This document shows positions 5,338-64,000 of a stretch of 64,000 nt of DNA, piece after piece. Source of the stretch: Phytoseiulus persimilis (lineage: Eukaryota; Arthropoda; Arachnida; Mesostigmata; Phytoseiidae); assembly GCA_037576195.1 (NCBI GenBank), contig CM075102.1:18286745-18350744 (forward strand), written 5' to 3'. The notes under the pieces were generated by a model. The model was not told the origin of the DNA. It searched no databases and saw only the letters and a program-made list of their open reading frames with translations. The position numbers were made by a program, and so were the translations under genes. Each line of letters opens with the position of its first letter. The stretch's first letter is position 1.

Positions 5338-8300
5338 AGCTGGCGCCCTTCATCCCCCAACCAGTTTCTCGTTTGCTCGGCGGCAGAGGGACCACTGAAC
5401 TGTCATCTAATTAACAAACTGTCGCGTGTTCTGGCAATCCTTCTTCAAGGATATCTGTCGGATTTATTTGATAGCAATCTTCCAAATTCACTCTCAGCGG
5501 AGTGATACCTTTTCAACGGACTCCCTGTCTCGGTCGAATGTTCCCTTCGCCAATTTCCATGGGTTGCGCATGAGCCAGTCGCTCGACTCCGCACGTTTGG
5601 CACACGGGATCCCGAGTCGACCTGATTTTCCGTGATACGGAGAACGCGGCAAACACTCCGTAATTTTTGATGGGTCCGTACGGCAGGCTGCAGGGCGTTT
5701 GCGGTATTCTCCGTGTCCCGGAAAACCAGGTATAATCCCGAGCCCCCAGCTTAAGCTGCTTGCTCCTCGATTTCAATCTGGGTCTTCCACTTGGTGCGCG
5801 GGATCCTCCTCGAACGGAGTGGAGTCGGGACAGCACTACTATTCTCAGAACTTGCTGCGCTGACTTCAAGGACCGATGCGGCCGACGTTGAGCGGCAAGC
5901 GTGCATCCCAGGGACTCATCAAACGTTCCCGTTCAGGAGTGTGCGAAACAACATCAGGGTCGGTTCAGAAAATGAGTCATAAGGCCGACTGATGTGCGGC
6001 GAGTAGGGATCTGCTCAAAGTATCAATCGTAGAACATCAATTCCGGCGATGGTTCCGCGGTTCTTCTCCCGCGAAATCGTGGAGCCGCCTCTGTCTTCCC
6101 ACAGGCCAACCGATCGACCTGGTATGATTACGACGGCGCACTGAAAAATTCATCCGAGCCCTCTCAGACATATGACTTCATCAATAACTAAACATCACCG
6201 GCCGTTAGGGCGACGCGACGTCAGCGCTGAAGGCAGCAAATTGACGAACAACAGAAACGACGCAAAACACCGCCACTTACTGAAGAATAGTTAAGATCAA
6301 GTGTTGACGATAGCTCGGCTGGATGTAGATATCTGTGATAACATCGTCGTCCATAGATCAGGTTGTCACTTTGGCAACTTTACCTAAGCTCTACCTCTAC
6401 CTTTCCGTTATTTTCTCTCTTCTGATATGCCAGCGAGGCAACCGGCCGGCTAACCCTGCGGGTTAACAGCAGATCTTCAGATAGTAATCTGCATCATCAT
6501 ATCGAGACAAAATATTCAGCGAGTCCACCCGTTCTTCATGTTTTGTGAGTGTTTCTTGAGCCATTACAGAGGCCCCTCGACACCGGCGTGAGAAGTTAAA
6601 GCAGCACGACAACGCGGAGTGAGTATTCGCTCGACCCGATTCGATCTTCAATAGTCATTGGTGGTTGAGCGTGTTGAACGAACCAGAATCGGACACCGGT
6701 GTCAGGAAATCAGGGATCTCAGAAGATTCACATACGTCTGATGTTAGAGGCGGACCCCCCTTCGGAAACCCCTCCCGATAAGCTTTCTGTGCCTCGGGCT
6801 CTCGGGTTCGCGGGTAATAATCAACGATGAATAGTCTCCGGGCCTAATTTTCCGGAGAAGTTCAAGACTCCGCGGTTTGAAAACGCGCGGGCCCAGAGCA
6901 CTGCGAACGGCGCGATTCGACGAGCCATCGGACCATCGGGTAATTGAGTAGAGTCAATAGATAATGCAAAGATGGGGAGATAAAGTGCCTGATGTTTGCG
7001 GTTCGTTTTGTCGGACATGAAGCAAGTGAAACGAGCCGCACCGCTCGCAACGTAACAGCGATATCTCACGTCTCCGAGTCAATACGAGCTATGGCAAACG
7101 AGCATGCGTCCAGAACAGATGGACCGAACCCTCGGCTGAGCATCGAACAAAACTTCTCCTGCACATTCCTGCTTTCTCGCCCCCTCTCTCACCATGATGT
7201 GATGAATCGGCGACTCCGCGAGCTGAGCATCACTGAGAACGCCTTCCACACGCTCGCCGGTGATCCGGTGGACCGAATAGCCGGAGCTTTCATCAGTAAG
7301 TGGAACGTACGTCATAACCAGAACGAAACACCAGGTCGCAACCGAGTGTCAGGAGCCCTGGTCTCGCAAAAACGTCGAACTACTTCAGTGCTCGAAACTG
7401 TCGCTGATTCCGCTTTGACCAACTTCAATTGGAGCCCTTCGATTGCTCCTCAGACCCTGCTCGCGGATCTGTTTGCATGTGGGGGCACATCGGCGACCGT
7501 GGCAACAGTAAGACCTCGTCGAGCTCGATACGGACGTTTGTCGTCCTGCTACAAACGAACCCTTGGGAATCTTCGTCAAAGATCCTTACAATTACATTTG
7601 AGTGCGAACTTGATTTGGTGGACATGAGGTCTGATTTGAAGAATCCCGTGGAGCACAGCTCCAATTCGGTGACAGGTGGGGTCGCGTTACTCCACGCCGC
7701 CCTGTTACCCTTTCCCCGATACATTGACACCGACGGGGATCTCCCTGGTGGGAGAAACGGATTCGGCAGAACAAAAAACATACGCGTTACGCATCGAATG
7801 ACGTCTCTCAGTGCTCAGGGCCTGCGCGGGGTCCCACGCACCATCGCAGAGGATCGGCAAGATATCGTCCGGCTCACGCAGTCGAATCCGGTGAACACAG
7901 CAGGAGCACCAACGGCTGCAACGAGATTCGCGCGCAGGAAATCTCCTCTGAACGGATATCTTACACGGGTAGAAACGTGTAGTGCTTTAGATTAGCTATG
8001 GAGCAAGAAACGGAAAGATTTGGTCCCGTTAGCCGGTCGACCGCGTCTCTCCATTTCTCCGCTTGGCGGCGACGATTAGTTTGGGTCCGCCACGCTTTGT
8101 GTACTACGCATGGCGCGTGAAACGATGGAAACGGGCGGGCAGTCTGAATAAGCAATTTTTCTCGTCTCTCCGCATTTCAAGCTCCTTGTGATTCTCCTCT
8201 CGATTCGTTGTTGCGGTTCCCGCTGCAAGCCGTGTCACCCGAAACCTCTTCCGAGTGCGCTTCTCTCGGCTTTTCTCGAACCTATTCCCAACAAACCCTG

Positions 8301-52987: not shown

Positions 52988-53010
52988 ATATATATATATA
53001 TATATATATA
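52988..53010. repeat. (AT)n microsatellite, target of the repeat block
   Basis: About eleven AT units directly abut the CTAG end of the Helitron-like dimer. Confidence 0.9.
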
Positions 53011-56000
53011 CTAGCCGGCCTTCGGCCGACTACGCTGGCCGGCCCGTCCCTTGCTTCGGGAGTCTACTGCTGACAGACACACATTGCCTTACATGTAAGG
53101 TCATGAGACCTTCGGTAGTGGCCACCGATTCTCGAAAGGATTCCGACCTGGAATCGAGGCACTTTCCTCTCTCTTCACTTGGTCAGCATCATGGTCTCGA
53201 GGAGTATGGTCAGATTGGTGTCGTAATCACCCCTCTAGATTCGGAGAAGCATGGTCAGATTGGTCCCGGAATCACCCCTCCAGAGTTGGAAAGTGATGGC
53301 CGGATTGGTCCCGGGATCACCCCCCCCCCCAGAGTTGGAAAGTAATGGCCAGATTGGTCTCGGAATCACCCCTCCAGAGTTGGAAAGTAATGGCCAGATT
53401 GGTCTCGTAATCACCCCTCCAGAGTTGGAAAGTAATGGCCAGATTGGTCCCGGAATCACTCCTCCAGAGTTGGAAAGTAATGGCCAGATTGGTCTCGGAA
53501 TCACCCCTCCGAAAATGGAAAGCAATGTCCAGATTGGTCTCGCAATCATCCCTCCAGAGTTGGAAAGTAATGGCCAGGTTGGTCTCTGAATCACCCCTCC
53601 AGAGTTGGAAACTAATGGCCAGATTGGTCTCGGAATCACCCCTCCAGAGTTGGTAAGTAATGGCCTTATTGGTCTCGGAATCACCCCTCTAATGTTGGAA
53701 AGTAATGGCCAGATTGGTCTCGGAATCACCCCTCCAGAGTTGGAAAGTAATGGCCAGATTGGTCTCGGAATCACCCCTCCAGAGTTGGAAAGTAATGGCC
53801 AGATTGGTCCCGGAATCACTCCTCCAGAGTTGGAAAGTAATGGCCAGATTGGTCCCGGAATCACCCCTTCAGAGTTGGAAAGTAATGGCCAGATTGGTCC
53901 CGGAATCACTCCTCCAGAGTTGGAAAGTAATGGCAAGATTGGTCTCGGAATCACCCCTCTAATGTTGGAAAGTAATGGCCAGATTGGTCTCGGAATCACC
54001 CCTCCAGAGTTGGAAAGTAATGGCCAGACTGGTCTCGGAATCACCCCTCCAGAGTTGGAAAGTAATGGCCAGATTGGTCCCGGAATCACTCCTCCAGAGT
54101 TGGAAAGTAATGGCCAGATTGGTCCCGGAATCACCCCTTCAGAGTTGGAAAGTAATGGCCAAATTGGTCCCGGAATCACTCCTCCAGAGTTGGAAAGTAA
54201 TGGCAAGATTGGTCTCGGAATCACCCCTCTAATGTTGGAAAGTAATGTCCAGATTGGTCTCGGAATCACCCCTCCAGAGTTGGAAAGTAATGGCCTGATT
54301 GGTCTCTGAATCAGCCCTCCAGAGTTGGAAAGTTATGGCCAGATGGGTCCCGGAATAACCCCTCCAGAGTTGGAAAGTAATGGTCGGATGGGTCTCGGAA
54401 TCACCCCTCCGAAAATGGAAAGTAATGTCCAGATTGGTCTCGCAATCATCCCTCCAGAGTTGGAAAGTAATGGCCAGATTGGTCTCTGAATCACCCCTCC
54501 AGAGTTGGAGACTAATGGCCAGATTGGTCTCGGAATCACCCCTCCAGAGTTGGTAAGTAATGGCCTTATTGGTCTCGGAATCACCCCTCTAATGTTGGAA
54601 AGTAATGGCCAGATTGGTCTCGGAATCACCCCTCCAGAGTTGGAAAGTAATGGCCAGATTGGTCTCGGAATCACCCCTCCAGAGTTGGAAAGTAATGGCC
54701 AGATTGGTCCCGGAATCACCCCTTCAGAGTTGGAAAGTAATGGCCAGATTGGTCCCGGAATCACCCCTCCAGAGTTGGGAAGTAATGGCCAGATTGGTCC
54801 CGGAATCACTCCTCCAGAGTTGGAAAGTAATGGCCAGATTGGTCTCGGAATCATCCCTCTAATGTTGGAAAGTAATGTCCAGATTGGTCTCGGAATCACC
54901 CCTCCAGAGTTGGAAAGTAATGGCCGGATTGGTCTCGGAATCACCCCCCTAAAGTTGGAAAGTAATGGCCAGATTGGTCTCGGAATCACCCCTCCAGAGT
55001 TGGAAAGTAATGGCCTGATTGGTCTCTGAATCAGCCCTCCAGAGTTGGAAAGTTATGGCCAGATGGGTCCCGGAATAACCCCTCCAGAGTTGGAAAGTAA
55101 TGGTCGGATGGGTCTCGGAATCACCCCTCCGAAAATGGAAAGTAATGTCCAGATTGGTCTCGCAATCATCCCTCCAGAGTTGGAAAGTAATGGTCAGATT
55201 GGTCTCTGAATCACCCCTCCAGAGTTGGAGACTAATGGCCAGATTGGTCTCGGAATCACCCCTCCAGAGTTGGAAAGTAATGGCCAGATTGGTCTCGGAA
55301 TCACCCCTCCAGAGTTGGAAAGTAATGGCCAGATTGGTCCCGGAATCACCCCTCCAGAGTTGGAAAGTAATGGCCTGATTGGTCTCTGAATCAGCCCTCC
55401 AGAGTTGGAAAGTTATGGCCAGATGGGTCCCGGAATAACCCCTCCAGAGTTGGAAAGTAATGGTCGGATGGGTCTCGGAATCACCCCTCCGAAAATGGAA
55501 AGTAATGTCCAGATTGGTCTCGCAATCATCCCTCCAGAGTTGGAAAGTAATGGCCAGATTGGTCTCTGAATCACCCCTCCAGAGTTGGAGACTAATGGCC
55601 AGATTGGTCTCGGAATCACCCCTCCAGAGTTGGTAAGTAATGGCCTTATTGGTCTCGGAATCACCCCTCTAATGTTGGAAAGTAATGGCCAGATTGGTCT
55701 CGGAATCACCCCTCCAGAGTTGGAAAGTAATGGCCAGATTGGTCTCGGAATCACCCCTCCAGAGTTGGAAAGTAATGGCCAGATTGGTCCCGGAATCACC
55801 CCTTCAGAGTTGGAAAGTAATGGCCAGATTGGTCCCGGAATCACCCCTCCAGAGTTGGGAAGTAATGGCCAGATTGGTCCCGGAATCACTCCTCCAGAGT
55901 TGGAAAGTAATGGCCAGATTGGTCTCGGAATCATCCCTCTAATGTTGGAAAGTAATGTCCAGATTGGTCTCGGAATCACCCCTCCAGAGTTGGAAAGTAA

Positions 56001-57366
56001 TGGCCGGATTGGTCTCGGAATCACCCCCCTAAAGTTGGAAAGTAATGGCCAGATTGGTCCCGGAATCACCCCTTCAGAGTTGGAAAGTAATGGCCAGATT
56101 GGTCCCGGAATCACCCCTCCAGAGTTGGGAAGTAATGGCCAGATTGGTCCCGGAATCACTCCTCCAGAGTTGGAAAGTAATGGCCAGATTGGTCTCGGAA
56201 TCATCCCTGTAATGTTGGAAAGTAATGTCCAGATTGGTCTCGGAATCACCCCTCCAGAGTTGGAAAGTAATGGCCAGATTGGTCCCGGAATCACCCCTTC
56301 AGAGTTGGAAAGTAATGGCCAAATTGGTCCCGGAATCACTCCTCCAGAGTTGGAAAGTAATGGCAAGATTGGTCTCGGAATCACCCCTCTAATGTTGGAA
56401 AGTAATGTCCAGATTGGTCTCGGAATCACCCCTCCAGAGTTGGAAAGTAATGGCCTGATTGGTCTCTGAATCAGCCCTCCAGAGTTGGAAAGTTATGGCC
56501 AGATGGGTCCCGGAATAACCCCTCCAGAGTTGGAAAGTAATGGTCGGATGGGTCTCGGAATCACCCCTCCGAAAATGGAAAGTAATGTCCAGATTGGTCT
56601 CGCAATCATCCCTCCAGAGTTGGAAAGTAATGGCCAGATTGGTCTCTGAATCACCCCTCCAGAGTTGGAGACTAATGGCCAGATTGGTCTCGGAATCACC
56701 CCTCCAGAGTTGGTAAGTAATGGCCTTATTGGTCTCGGAATCACCCCTCTAATGTTGGAAAGTAATGGCCAGATTGGTCTCGGAATCACCCCTCCAGAGT
56801 TGGAAAGTAATGGCCAGATTGGTCTCGGAATCACCCCTCCAGAGTTGGAAAGTAATGGCCAGATTGGTCCCGGAATCACCCCTTCAGAGTTGGAAAGTAA
56901 TGGCCAGATTGGTCCCGGAATCACCCCTCCAGAGTTGGGAAGTAATGGCCAGATTGGTCCCGGAATCACTCCTCCAGAGTTGGAAAGTAATGGCCAGATT
57001 GGTCTCGGAATCATCCCTCTAATGTTGGAAAGTAATGTCCAGATTGGTCTCGGAATCACCCCTCCAGAGTTGGAAAGTAATGGCCGGATTGGTCTCGGAA
57101 TCACCCCCCTAAAGTTGGAAAGTAATGGCCAGATTGGCACCGGAATCACCTCTCCAGAGTTGGAAAGTAATGGCCAGATTGGTCTCGTAATCACCCCTCC
57201 AGAGTTGGAAAGTAATGGCCAGATTTGTCTCGTAATCAACCCTCCAGAGTTGGAAACTAATGGCCAGATTTGTCTCGGAATCACCCCTCCAGAGTTGGGA
57301 AGTAGTGGCCTTATTGTTCTCAGAATCACCCCTCCAGATATTTTCATGATAGATTTTTATGATAGA
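53011..57366 (-). mobile_element. Helitron-like element, copy 1 of tandem dimer
   Basis: A 4,356-bp unit. Read on the minus strand it begins TCTATCATAAAAATC (at 57,366) and ends GGCCGAAGGCCGGCTAG (at 53,011): a GGCC/GGCC hairpin directly before CTAG, followed by host T. Established Helitron ends are 5' TC and 3' hairpin plus CTRR, with insertion between A and T. The interior is about 92 units of a 45-bp minisatellite, with a unique 3' part at 53,011-53,202. No Rep/helicase frame is present, so it would be non-autonomous. Its hairpin is closer to CTAG than usual. Confidence 0.7.
53203..57338. repeat. 45-bp minisatellite array, about 92 units
   Basis: The unit is 45 bp (an example is 53,341-53,385). 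On the plus strand it translates to SNGQIGLGITPPELE, on the minus strand to LLSNSGGVIPRPIWP. Variants change single codons (LGI/PGI, PEL/LML, NGL). A CTCTGA variant introduces in-frame stops. A higher-order repeat of 24 units (1,080 bp) recurs at 54,505, 55,585 and 56,665, with a 20-unit (900-bp) spacing before them. The open frames on both strands follow from the length being divisible by three, so I do not call them genes. Confidence 0.95.
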
Positions 57367-60300
57367 CTAGCCGGCCTTCGGCCGACTACGCTGGCCGGCC
57401 CGTCCCTTGCTTCGGGAGTCTACTGCTGACAGACACACATTGCCTTACATGTAAGGTCATGAGACCTTCGGTAGTGGCCACCGATTCTCGAAAGGATTCC
57501 GACCTGGAATCGAGGCACTTTCCTCTCTCTTCACTTGGTCAGCATCATGGTCTCGAGGAGTATGGTCAGATTGGTGTCGTAATCACCCCTCTAGATTCGG
57601 AGAAGCATGGTCAGATTGGTCCCGGAATCACCCCTCCAGAGTTGGAAAGTGATGGCCGGATTGGTCCCGGGATCACCCCCCCCCCCAGAGTTGGAAAGTA
57701 ATGGCCAGATTGGTCTCGGAATCACCCCTCCAGAGTTGGAAAGTAATGGCCAGATTGGTCTCGTAATCACCCCTCCAGAGTTGGAAAGTAATGGCCAGAT
57801 TGGTCCCGGAATCACTCCTCCAGAGTTGGAAAGTAATGGCCAGATTGGTCTCGGAATCACCCCTCCGAAAATGGAAAGCAATGTCCAGATTGGTCTCGCA
57901 ATCATCCCTCCAGAGTTGGAAAGTAATGGCCAGGTTGGTCTCTGAATCACCCCTCCAGAGTTGGAAACTAATGGCCAGATTGGTCTCGGAATCACCCCTC
58001 CAGAGTTGGTAAGTAATGGCCTTATTGGTCTCGGAATCACCCCTCTAATGTTGGAAAGTAATGGCCAGATTGGTCTCGGAATCACCCCTCCAGAGTTGGA
58101 AAGTAATGGCCAGATTGGTCTCGGAATCACCCCTCCAGAGTTGGAAAGTAATGGCCAGATTGGTCCCGGAATCACTCCTCCAGAGTTGGAAAGTAATGGC
58201 CAGATTGGTCCCGGAATCACCCCTTCAGAGTTGGAAAGTAATGGCCAGATTGGTCCCGGAATCACTCCTCCAGAGTTGGAAAGTAATGGCAAGATTGGTC
58301 TCGGAATCACCCCTCTAATGTTGGAAAGTAATGGCCAGATTGGTCTCGGAATCACCCCTCCAGAGTTGGAAAGTAATGGCCAGACTGGTCTCGGAATCAC
58401 CCCTCCAGAGTTGGAAAGTAATGGCCAGATTGGTCCCGGAATCACTCCTCCAGAGTTGGAAAGTAATGGCCAGATTGGTCCCGGAATCACCCCTTCAGAG
58501 TTGGAAAGTAATGGCCAAATTGGTCCCGGAATCACTCCTCCAGAGTTGGAAAGTAATGGCAAGATTGGTCTCGGAATCACCCCTCTAATGTTGGAAAGTA
58601 ATGTCCAGATTGGTCTCGGAATCACCCCTCCAGAGTTGGAAAGTAATGGCCTGATTGGTCTCTGAATCAGCCCTCCAGAGTTGGAAAGTTATGGCCAGAT
58701 GGGTCCCGGAATAACCCCTCCAGAGTTGGAAAGTAATGGTCGGATGGGTCTCGGAATCACCCCTCCGAAAATGGAAAGTAATGTCCAGATTGGTCTCGCA
58801 ATCATCCCTCCAGAGTTGGAAAGTAATGGCCAGATTGGTCTCTGAATCACCCCTCCAGAGTTGGAGACTAATGGCCAGATTGGTCTCGGAATCACCCCTC
58901 CAGAGTTGGTAAGTAATGGCCTTATTGGTCTCGGAATCACCCCTCTAATGTTGGAAAGTAATGGCCAGATTGGTCTCGGAATCACCCCTCCAGAGTTGGA
59001 AAGTAATGGCCAGATTGGTCTCGGAATCACCCCTCCAGAGTTGGAAAGTAATGGCCAGATTGGTCCCGGAATCACCCCTTCAGAGTTGGAAAGTAATGGC
59101 CAGATTGGTCCCGGAATCACCCCTCCAGAGTTGGGAAGTAATGGCCAGATTGGTCCCGGAATCACTCCTCCAGAGTTGGAAAGTAATGGCCAGATTGGTC
59201 TCGGAATCATCCCTCTAATGTTGGAAAGTAATGTCCAGATTGGTCTCGGAATCACCCCTCCAGAGTTGGAAAGTAATGGCCGGATTGGTCTCGGAATCAC
59301 CCCCCTAAAGTTGGAAAGTAATGGCCAGATTGGTCTCGGAATCACCCCTCCAGAGTTGGAAAGTAATGGCCTGATTGGTCTCTGAATCAGCCCTCCAGAG
59401 TTGGAAAGTTATGGCCAGATGGGTCCCGGAATAACCCCTCCAGAGTTGGAAAGTAATGGTCGGATGGGTCTCGGAATCACCCCTCCGAAAATGGAAAGTA
59501 ATGTCCAGATTGGTCTCGCAATCATCCCTCCAGAGTTGGAAAGTAATGGTCAGATTGGTCTCTGAATCACCCCTCCAGAGTTGGAGACTAATGGCCAGAT
59601 TGGTCTCGGAATCACCCCTCCAGAGTTGGAAAGTAATGGCCAGATTGGTCTCGGAATCACCCCTCCAGAGTTGGAAAGTAATGGCCAGATTGGTCCCGGA
59701 ATCACCCCTCCAGAGTTGGAAAGTAATGGCCTGATTGGTCTCTGAATCAGCCCTCCAGAGTTGGAAAGTTATGGCCAGATGGGTCCCGGAATAACCCCTC
59801 CAGAGTTGGAAAGTAATGGTCGGATGGGTCTCGGAATCACCCCTCCGAAAATGGAAAGTAATGTCCAGATTGGTCTCGCAATCATCCCTCCAGAGTTGGA
59901 AAGTAATGGCCAGATTGGTCTCTGAATCACCCCTCCAGAGTTGGAGACTAATGGCCAGATTGGTCTCGGAATCACCCCTCCAGAGTTGGTAAGTAATGGC
60001 CTTATTGGTCTCGGAATCACCCCTCTAATGTTGGAAAGTAATGGCCAGATTGGTCTCGGAATCACCCCTCCAGAGTTGGAAAGTAATGGCCAGATTGGTC
60101 TCGGAATCACCCCTCCAGAGTTGGAAAGTAATGGCCAGATTGGTCCCGGAATCACCCCTTCAGAGTTGGAAAGTAATGGCCAGATTGGTCCCGGAATCAC
60201 CCCTCCAGAGTTGGGAAGTAATGGCCAGATTGGTCCCGGAATCACTCCTCCAGAGTTGGAAAGTAATGGCCAGATTGGTCTCGGAATCATCCCTCTAATG

Positions 60301-61722
60301 TTGGAAAGTAATGTCCAGATTGGTCTCGGAATCACCCCTCCAGAGTTGGAAAGTAATGGCCGGATTGGTCTCGGAATCACCCCCCTAAAGTTGGAAAGTA
60401 ATGGCCAGATTGGTCCCGGAATCACCCCTTCAGAGTTGGAAAGTAATGGCCAGATTGGTCCCGGAATCACCCCTCCAGAGTTGGGAAGTAATGGCCAGAT
60501 TGGTCCCGGAATCACTCCTCCAGAGTTGGAAAGTAATGGCCAGATTGGTCTCGGAATCATCCCTGTAATGTTGGAAAGTAATGTCCAGATTGGTCTCGGA
60601 ATCACCCCTCCAGAGTTGGAAAGTAATGGCCAGATTGGTCCCGGAATCACCCCTTCAGAGTTGGAAAGTAATGGCCAAATTGGTCCCGGAATCACTCCTC
60701 CAGAGTTGGAAAGTAATGGCAAGATTGGTCTCGGAATCACCCCTCTAATGTTGGAAAGTAATGTCCAGATTGGTCTCGGAATCACCCCTCCAGAGTTGGA
60801 AAGTAATGGCCTGATTGGTCTCTGAATCAGCCCTCCAGAGTTGGAAAGTTATGGCCAGATGGGTCCCGGAATAACCCCTCCAGAGTTGGAAAGTAATGGT
60901 CGGATGGGTCTCGGAATCACCCCTCCGAAAATGGAAAGTAATGTCCAGATTGGTCTCGCAATCATCCCTCCAGAGTTGGAAAGTAATGGCCAGATTGGTC
61001 TCTGAATCACCCCTCCAGAGTTGGAGACTAATGGCCAGATTGGTCTCGGAATCACCCCTCCAGAGTTGGTAAGTAATGGCCTTATTGGTCTCGGAATCAC
61101 CCCTCTAATGTTGGAAAGTAATGGCCAGATTGGTCTCGGAATCACCCCTCCAGAGTTGGAAAGTAATGGCCAGATTGGTCTCGGAATCACCCCTCCAGAG
61201 TTGGAAAGTAATGGCCAGATTGGTCCCGGAATCACCCCTTCAGAGTTGGAAAGTAATGGCCAGATTGGTCCCGGAATCACCCCTCCAGAGTTGGGAAGTA
61301 ATGGCCAGATTGGTCCCGGAATCACTCCTCCAGAGTTGGAAAGTAATGGCCAGATTGGTCTCGGAATCATCCCTCTAATGTTGGAAAGTAATGTCCAGAT
61401 TGGTCTCGGAATCACCCCTCCAGAGTTGGAAAGTAATGGCCGGATTGGTCTCGGAATCACCCCCCTAAAGTTGGAAAGTAATGGCCAGATTGGCACCGGA
61501 ATCACCTCTCCAGAGTTGGAAAGTAATGGCCAGATTGGTCTCGTAATCACCCCTCCAGAGTTGGAAAGTAATGGCCAGATTTGTCTCGTAATCAACCCTC
61601 CAGAGTTGGAAACTAATGGCCAGATTTGTCTCGGAATCACCCCTCCAGAGTTGGGAAGTAGTGGCCTTATTGTTCTCAGAATCACCCCTCCAGATATTTT
61701 CATGATAGATTTTTATGATAGA
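57367..61722 (-). mobile_element. Helitron-like element, copy 2 of tandem dimer
   Basis: A head-to-tail copy of the preceding unit at a constant offset of 4,356 bp. All long reading frames in the two copies give identical translations, including the 11-C run. On the minus strand its CTAG (57,370 to 57,367) is followed immediately by the TC of copy 1. Its own TC start at 61,722 is preceded by A. The two copies therefore look like one dimeric insertion. Assembly duplication is the main alternative. Confidence 0.68.
57559..61694. repeat. 45-bp minisatellite array, second copy
   Basis: The same array repeated 4,356 bp downstream, with the same order of variant units and stops wherever compared. 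Confidence 0.95.
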
Positions 61723-62045
61723 TGTATAAGAGAGGGGGTAGGGAAGGATATCCGATGACGATGGGATGAGGCCTAAGAGTCTGGCTGGCGTCATAACGGG
61801 GCGGTGCACCTTATCGTCAGAATTTGGATGCGGGTGACAGTATGGAGGGGGTCAAAGTTGGGGTAAATCGCGAGGGGTGGAGGAGGGGAGGGGGAGGAGG
61901 GGAGGGATGGGTGGCCTATGTCCTTCCCGGTGAGCCGCCCCACATTATGCAGTTTGTTCCAAGTCGATCCGATCAATCCCAGAGGAGCCTATTGAGGACA
62001 AACAAACAAACAAACAAACAGACCCTGGATTTTTATATATATAGA
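61723..62045 (-). mobile_element. 323-bp Helitron-like 5' unit, copy 1
   Basis: On the minus strand it starts TCTATATATATAAAAATC at 62,045, followed by a GTTT-repeat stretch and a C-rich segment, the style of many Helitron 5' regions. Its far end (CTTATACA) lacks CTRR and a hairpin, so the unit looks like a 5' fragment. It contains an (ACAA)n run near 61,998-62,020 and a purine-rich GGGGAGG stretch near 61,880. Confidence 0.6.
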
Positions 62046-62368
62046 TGTATAAGAGAGGGGGTAGGGAAGGATATCCGATGACGATGGGATGAGGCCTAAG
62101 AGTCTGGCTGGCGTCATAACGGGGCGGTGCACCTTATCGTCAGAATTTGGATGCGGGTGACAGTATGGAGGGGGTCAAAGTTGGGGTAAATCGCGAGGGG
62201 TGGAGGAGGGGAGGGGGAGGAGGGGAGGGATGGGTGGCCTATGTCCTTCCCGGTGAGCCGCCCCACATTATGCAGTTTGTTCCAAGTCGATCCGATCAAT
62301 CCCAGAGGAGCCTATTGAGGACAAACAAACAAACAAACAAACAGACCCTGGATTTTTATATATATAGA
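62046..62368 (-). mobile_element. 323-bp Helitron-like 5' unit, copy 2
   Basis: A tandem repeat of the preceding 323 bp at constant offset, identical as far as I compared. It ends on the plus strand with GATTTTTATATATATAGA (62,351-62,368). The base before its minus-strand TC is A, as at the other starts. Confidence 0.62.
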
Positions 62369-62440
62369 TATATATTTACCTCTCCTGGATGATAGCCGCA
62401 CATTAACCGCACGACTGAAGATTTCAATACTTACTCCTTT

Positions 62441-62466
62441 GATAACCGCACCTGGGTGCGGTCAAC
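62441..62466. repeat. Inverted repeat ACCGCAC/GTGCGGT
   Basis: ACCGCAC and GTGCGGT separated by CTGG form a 7-bp stem inside the left subterminal region of the DNA element. Confidence 0.8.
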
Positions 62467-62668
62467 ATGTCTTACAGGACTTATTTGCTGTATACAAAAA
62501 AATGATAACCGCACACCCGAATTCGAGATCATGGGTGTGAAAACGAAGTCGGAATTACTTGTCTGCTGGTTCGCAAGAGCCGATTTCTCTAAAATTCGAG
62601 TAATCTGCGGGGAACTGAGGCCTATGCTCACTTGATCCATAATTTTACTTGAACCTATTTGATCGAAA

Positions 62669-63982: not shown

Positions 63983-64000
63983 TCTATATATATAAAAATC
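63983..64000 (+). mobile_element. Start of another Helitron-like element (truncated)
   Basis: TCTATATATATAAAAATC is identical to the 5' terminus of the 323-bp units but on the plus strand. The element would continue beyond the window. Confidence 0.5.

Follow-up and report, generated by a model that had tools for sequence, protein, structure and literature searches.

Nested self-insertion as the best reading of a tandem non-autonomous Helitron in Phytoseiulus persimilis

How do two Helitron units come to lie head to tail with not a single base between them? Tandem Helitrons have been taken as a sign that termination is missed during rolling-circle transposition (such arrays appear as support for rolling-circle transposition in the accessible text of PMC5876387), and one lies in the stretch of Phytoseiulus persimilis DNA analysed here (64,000 nucleotides of contig C2, hereafter the window). 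The original prediction had described two units of 4,356 bp on the minus strand that abut as CTAG/TC (the slash marks the join), with A before and T after the pair, and this description was confirmed: the units differ at 0 of 4,356 positions, both start with TCTATCATAAA and end with GGCCGAAGGCCGGCTAG, and zero bases separate them. The upstream unit, U1, occupies positions 57,367-61,722 and the downstream unit, U2, positions 53,011-57,366 (window coordinates; features are on the minus strand unless stated otherwise), with the CTAG/TC junction between 57,367 and 57,366 (57,361-57,372). The element consists mostly of a 45-bp minisatellite, present in U2 in 91.8 copies (53,206-57,338) and, given that U1 equals U2, identically in U1. 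The 3′ end of U2, GGCCGGCCAGCGTAGTCGGCCGAAGGCCGGCTAG (53,011-53,044), is capable of forming a hairpin, and the same letters close U1 at 57,367-57,400.

The outer limits of the insertion were read from its relatives in the genome (181 Mb, 127 contigs), where 449 3′ ends of this type are found at ≤3 mismatches. The sample comprised the window and 20 loci, top-ranked among the 40 best 3′-end matches outside the window units. In the sampled loci CTAG is followed by diverse sequence that begins with T, so that 53,011 is a real terminus. On the 5′ side, the relatives carry a conserved head of about 323 bp, which begins with TCTATATATATAAAAATCC and ends with TATACA; of the unit starts that could be placed in this sample, 18 follow such a head (including L023, whose head ends with GATACA), 5 follow another unit's CTAG, and none is bare. 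Position 61,722, previously taken for the 5′ end, was therefore rejected as the left end, since in relatives this TC follows a head or another unit's CTAG, and two identical heads lie upstream of U1, which moves the outer ends to 62,368 and 53,011.

The first head, H1 (62,046-62,368; 323 bp, TCTATATATATAAAAATCC...TTATACA), carries the true left terminus, and the second, H2 (61,723-62,045), has the same sequence at 323 of 323 positions, microsatellite included. The whole insertion is accordingly H1-H2-U1-U2 (53,011-62,368, 9,358 bp), with its outer 5′ end at 62,368 and its outer 3′ end at 53,011. To the left of the head, flanks in relatives turn diverse and end in A in 16 of 17 cases of the first sample, later exceptions being L050 and L055 (both T) and L056 (G). 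Three loci (L017, L021 and L025) are short forms that have neither the second half of the head nor its internal TCTATC site, the first ~130-150 bp of the head running straight into the 45-bp array.

An empty site had been proposed as a check, and the flanks provide one in part. The left flank belongs to a dispersed repeat, other copies of which, recovered by querying with the two flanks joined, continue into (TA)n without interruption where the insertion lies, and these uninterrupted paralogues support the outer ends; the 5′ flank (62,369-62,518) is the end of this repeat, ...GGTAAATATATA leading into (TA)n, and is continuous in the paralogues L105-L107, while the 3′ flank (52,988-53,010) consists of (TA)n from the host repeat that the insertion interrupts. 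Since the insertion point falls within a microsatellite, however, the paralogues do not show the exact base. A sharper empty site exists for L021, whose flanks CCTCTTTT and TACCAAATAAG are found joined in a flank of L034 as CCTCTTTTTACCACATAAG, the target being T/T. The repeat at 62,369-62,518 carries GTGCGGTTATCA motifs and ends in (TA)n, and its left-flank part was matched at about 40 scored places.

The window element is a non-autonomous canonical Helitron. Its termini are of the canonical kind (5′ TC and 3′ CTRR, here CTAG), T follows the 3′ end in 27 of 27 non-self flanks, and insertion takes place between A and T without target duplication; the Helitron-type 3′ end and A/T target claimed by the original prediction are upheld, and a sibling that shares these ends codes for RepHel. 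This sibling is the second unit of the array at L009 (C4:1889575-1882848, 6,728 bp, TCTATCATAAA...GGCCGGCTAG), which holds an open frame of 1,288 aa with Pfam matches to Helitron_like_N (1.7e-61) and PIF1 (8.2e-62). Residues 92-1,271 of the frame match Helraiser (PDB 7lcc, E=8e-243), and its HAH and KY...KY stretches, which we take to be catalytic, align with those of Helraiser; the predicted product of this sibling unit is a Helraiser-like RepHel protein, as expected of an autonomous family member. Across the genome Helitron_like_N has 101 matches, not all of which belong to the family of the window element. At L049 a 307-aa frame with repeats (7,335-8,258, minus strand) lies upstream of the RepHel frame and overlaps it, and has a weak STPR-repeat match below the curated cut-off.

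Helentrons (Helitron2) are recognized by a T/T target, an endonuclease domain in the protein and subterminal inverted repeats. In the family studied here A precedes and T follows the element in nearly all cases, and Pfam detects no endonuclease domain in the 1,288-aa frame, which may be less than the whole protein. In canonical Helitrons a hairpin of 16-20 nt precedes the 3′ end by about 10-15 nt. The letters of the hairpin reported before CTAG are present and can form a stem, but this stem lies only ~2-3 nt from the CTAG end, and its folding as DNA is only 1 SD better than that of shuffled sequences (z = -1.0), which is no better than composition gives.

Because the head acts as an internal marker, the order of parts is informative: read-through of the whole element leads to HUHU, and insertion at the left end to HHUU, the order found in the window. 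We consider it probable that an HU copy entered an identical HU at the border of its H and U, an internal site resembling the left end. The mobile form would be H+U (~4.68 kb in the window). The RepHel protein of an autonomous sibling would peel off a single strand of it, beginning at the left end (TC) and stopping at the first 3′ end (CTAG), and join this strand into an A/T target with an ATAA box ~7 nt downstream. As both the left end and the H-U border resemble this target, each insertion offers sites for the next, and an HU entering the internal A/TC of an identical HU would yield A/H-H-U-U/T with the exact CTAG/TC join. A single HU insertion is the simplest account since heads and units alike were doubled and neither pair shows a difference, and the best reading pairs H1 with the outer unit U2 and H2 with the inner unit U1; the two identical copies in the window hold no order information by themselves, and the order of events is inferred, as are the reading of the ATAA box by the enzyme and a common recognition behind donor and target cuts. 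The perfect junction does not favour termination failure, which had been drawn from it, as HU self-insertion makes the same CTAG/TC join. The single dimeric insertion that had also been proposed is possible if the HHUU array moved whole, but no observation requires it. On the best reading we are dealing with a self-targeting canonical Helitron, an alternative to the usual read-through account of head-to-tail Helitrons, and the question becomes testable in one genome, which contains 38 unit-unit joins, three subtypes and relatives whose RepHel frames are intact.

These joins were counted as follows. The pattern of GGCCGGCTAG directly followed by TCTATCATAAA has 43 matches at ≤1 mismatch (backwards control 0), and inspection of the right side of all 43 identified 38 as true unit-unit joins; the remaining 5 (C1:8506903, C1:11284696, C2:51853889, C3:21295011 and C3:24167280) were rejected, their right side being a look-alike site and not a unit. 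Unit-head joins number 38 (≤2 mismatches), head-head joins 41 (≤1) and head-unit joins 176 (≤1), with backwards controls of 0; the unit-head matches in L010, L011, L018, L022, L032 and L103 were inspected individually, and head-unit positions comprise 100 of the 176 among the matches listed, plus 51 from a related pattern. At least one head-head match, that at C4:23147618, was rejected as a look-alike in the flank, so that the array there has two heads and not three. Exact self-insertion joins thus amount to 38 unit-unit and 38 unit-head joins against 449 3′ ends, and given that some unit-unit joins arose without self-insertion, 76/449 is an upper bound.

If HU copies nest at any A/TC, units counted from the left never outnumber heads. 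A true unit-unit join and a placed head run are available for 23 arrays, which together hold 29 of the 38 joins (the other 9 being unplaced); one of them (C3:24188514, L102) is known from junction positions alone, and L054 is bounded by N on the left. At least two heads are found in 20 of the 23 (exceptions: L052, L055 and L067), and 17 keep the rule throughout. It is broken in six (L050, L052, L053, L055, L060 and L067), where units exceed heads at some point, and in four of these the surplus unit starts like its neighbour or is nearly identical to it, as local duplication gives. Hence, unit-only duplication occurs too, and nested HU insertion alone is insufficient to explain all arrays. Since the 23 arrays were picked for their unit-unit joins, it is the untargeted sample (20 loci and the window) that allows a fair comparison: two heads are present in 5 of 5 runs with such a join, and at least two in only 3 of 16 runs without one (L011, L015 and L016; Fisher p=0.0028; 21 head runs tabulated by hand, with the partial heads of L017, L021 and L025 counted as one and the headless L027 dropped). 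Single copies of the form H-H-U would be expected if H-H-U-U were copied from its leftmost start to the first CTAG, as proposed for Fusarium. A candidate array of one head and three units (C2:20266065-20272885) was rejected, as together with heads further upstream it reads HHHUHUUU. At L060, two miniature units of 500 bp lie in tandem (1,624-2,623) and are 1 base different.

The end of the head and the start of the unit distinguish three subtypes (A, B and C), and directly adjacent heads and units share their subtype in all 35 readable pairs (23 A, 9 C and 3 B; 3 more were unreadable). Under nested insertion the outer head should also agree with the outer unit, and in mixed arrays it does so in 6 of 7 pairs: B with B in L018 and in L022, C with C in L050, A with A in L054, and C with C twice at C2:20261340. 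The corresponding bracket structures are B(AA)B for L018, B(CC)B for L022 and C(C(AA)(CC)C)C for C2:20261340, and the mismatched pair is that of L069 (C head, A-like unit). If outer units were random picks among the unit types present at unit-unit joins, 6 of 7 matches would have P ~0.001, where the outer pairs were assigned by hand before the draw, A is the commonest type and the pairs are not fully independent because two come from one array (C2:20261340).

Further evidence comes from the target. The idea of an ATAA box was noted after the first 20 flanks, upon which 18 more were fetched; ten flanks at self or tandem joins were left out, as was L033, where no end is visible. ATAA starts at +6 to +10 of the A/T in 18 of 27 non-self flanks (9 of 14 among the suggesting flanks and 9 of 13 among those fetched later), whereas equally sized control windows placed farther out in these flanks contain it in 2 of 216 cases. 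As background, 70 of 5,780 A/T sites in the window from 1 to 52,000 (1.2%), and 43 of 858 A+T-rich ones, have the box; the binomial p for the second set is 4e-15 against all A/T sites and 1e-9 against the A+T-rich ones. The same box is found at the element's left end (A followed by TCTATATATATAAAAATC) and at the internal H-U border (A followed by TCTATCATAAAAATC), and two independent look-alike sites, TGTATCATAAAAATCGG and TCTATCATAAAAACAAG, have each been used as a target twice. Near position 1,490 of L061 a head is inserted at the second TCTATCATGAAAA micro-repeat, 13 bp inside the unit start, so that more than one A/TC near the H-U border serves as target. Our literature search returned no published report of an ATAA target box, which falls short of proving its absence in print; the accessible text of PMC5148889, PMC13286980, PMC4778049, PMC3288121, PMC4067079 and PMC5876387 does not describe one.

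A tentative extension, to which we give somewhat less than even credence, is that RepHel reads one single-strand signal, A/T with ATAAA ~6 nt later, and cuts both the donor's left end and the target by it. Target choice would then mimic the left end, insertions would recreate the preferred target at their own border, and tandems would arise through bracket-like nesting instead of missed termination. A shared signal for donor and target, if true, would parallel IS608 and IS91, which are site-specific HUH transposons of bacteria.

The arrays in which units outnumber heads make duplication of the unit alone the main rival for the window, as such duplication is seen in this genome: an H-H-U would have been inserted once, and unequal exchange, conversion or replication slippage would then have produced a second, tandem copy of its unit. 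Suitable precursors exist as H-H-U and H-H-H-U singles (L016 and L015, respectively), units are in surplus over heads in 6 of the 23 arrays, and some neighbours are nearly identical (two 500-bp units differing at 1 of 500 positions, and three 2,151-bp units differing by 0 and 4). Yet the window heads are identical over 323 bp, whereas the two heads of L016 differ at 19 of ~271 positions; one event doubling heads and units is simpler than two; and matching outer subtypes are left unexplained. We therefore hold this route to be unlikely in the window.

Rolling-circle read-through, in which the first CTAG was passed without termination and both units went in together as a dimer, would also make U1 and U2 identical, and such bypass is the published account of tandem Helitrons in bat and silkworm (as given in the accessible part of PMC4067079), for which reason it keeps a small share of our belief. 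Circling an H+U template, however, gives H-U-H-U with a unit-head join, so that H-H-U-U would require a circle of the unit only and a separate doubling of the head. Moreover, many unit-unit arrays join units of unlike length and subtype (3,991 and 3,006 bp in L018, 2,241 and 1,382 bp in L022), and such joins are not obtained by copying round a single template. Whole-element read-through predicting HUHU, it is improbable for the window. Finally, a perfect repeat may have been collapsed or duplicated during assembly, and 0 differences over 4,356 + 323 bp are just the condition under which assemblers err, but the assembly also contains H-H-U-U arrays whose units are clearly distinct (L018 and L022), which indicates that the arrangement is real in this genome and renders an artefact very improbable.

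Nested insertion of an HU copy, the preferred reading, can be set against what is known of other systems. Helraiser (Helibat1) shares with the window family the 5′ TC, the 3′ CTAG, the A/T target, the lack of target duplication and a matching RepHel; unlike it, the window family has a defined ATAA box at about +7, a second, internal left-end-like site and a hairpin that almost touches CTAG. According to the accessible text of PMC4778049, the preference of Helraiser for DNA rich in A+T is strongest on the 3′ flank, and a region of high A+T content lies near the cut at its left end; the same text reports that new insertions in cell culture are not clustered around donor sites, which counts against self-targeting. 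For FoHeli of Fusarium oxysporum, self-insertion has been proposed to give several 5′ termini and one 3′ terminus (PMC5148889, in part), and multiple 5′ termini are likewise seen in the H-H-U copies of the window family; FoHeli differs in its non-canonical termini and target, and the window family was tested across arrays by counts and subtypes. Nested maize Helitrons have multiple termini and tend to insert near other Helitrons, and the pattern used to search for 5′ ends of helB, ATC-N7/8-TTAAAA, resembles the left end studied here; their multiple 3′ termini are mostly without CTAG, and the accessible text does not describe exact tandem joins (all from PMC3288121, in part). The HINE/Helentron elements of Metaseiulus occidentalis are non-autonomous elements of the rolling-circle type, and some contain internal tandem repeats; they differ from the window family, with its A/T target, in having T-rich targets and subterminal inverted repeats (PMC4067079, in part).

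Some observations on the neighbourhood and make-up of the window element can be added. A copy at C2:13327420 was tried as a source copy, since it is 100% identical over the first 120 unit bases, and was rejected; it has a single head and identity ends after 193 bases. The last 201 bases of the window unit (53,011-53,211) are 100% identical to type-A units on C4 and C1, and the 5′ part of the same unit is of type C, which suggests that subtypes may exchange modules. A separate relative starts at the right edge of the window (63,983-64,000, plus strand) and runs beyond it to contig position 18,353,250; this single HU copy (L012, C2 18,350,727-18,353,250) has a unit of 2,197 bp and lies head to head with the nested pair, ~1.6 kb apart.
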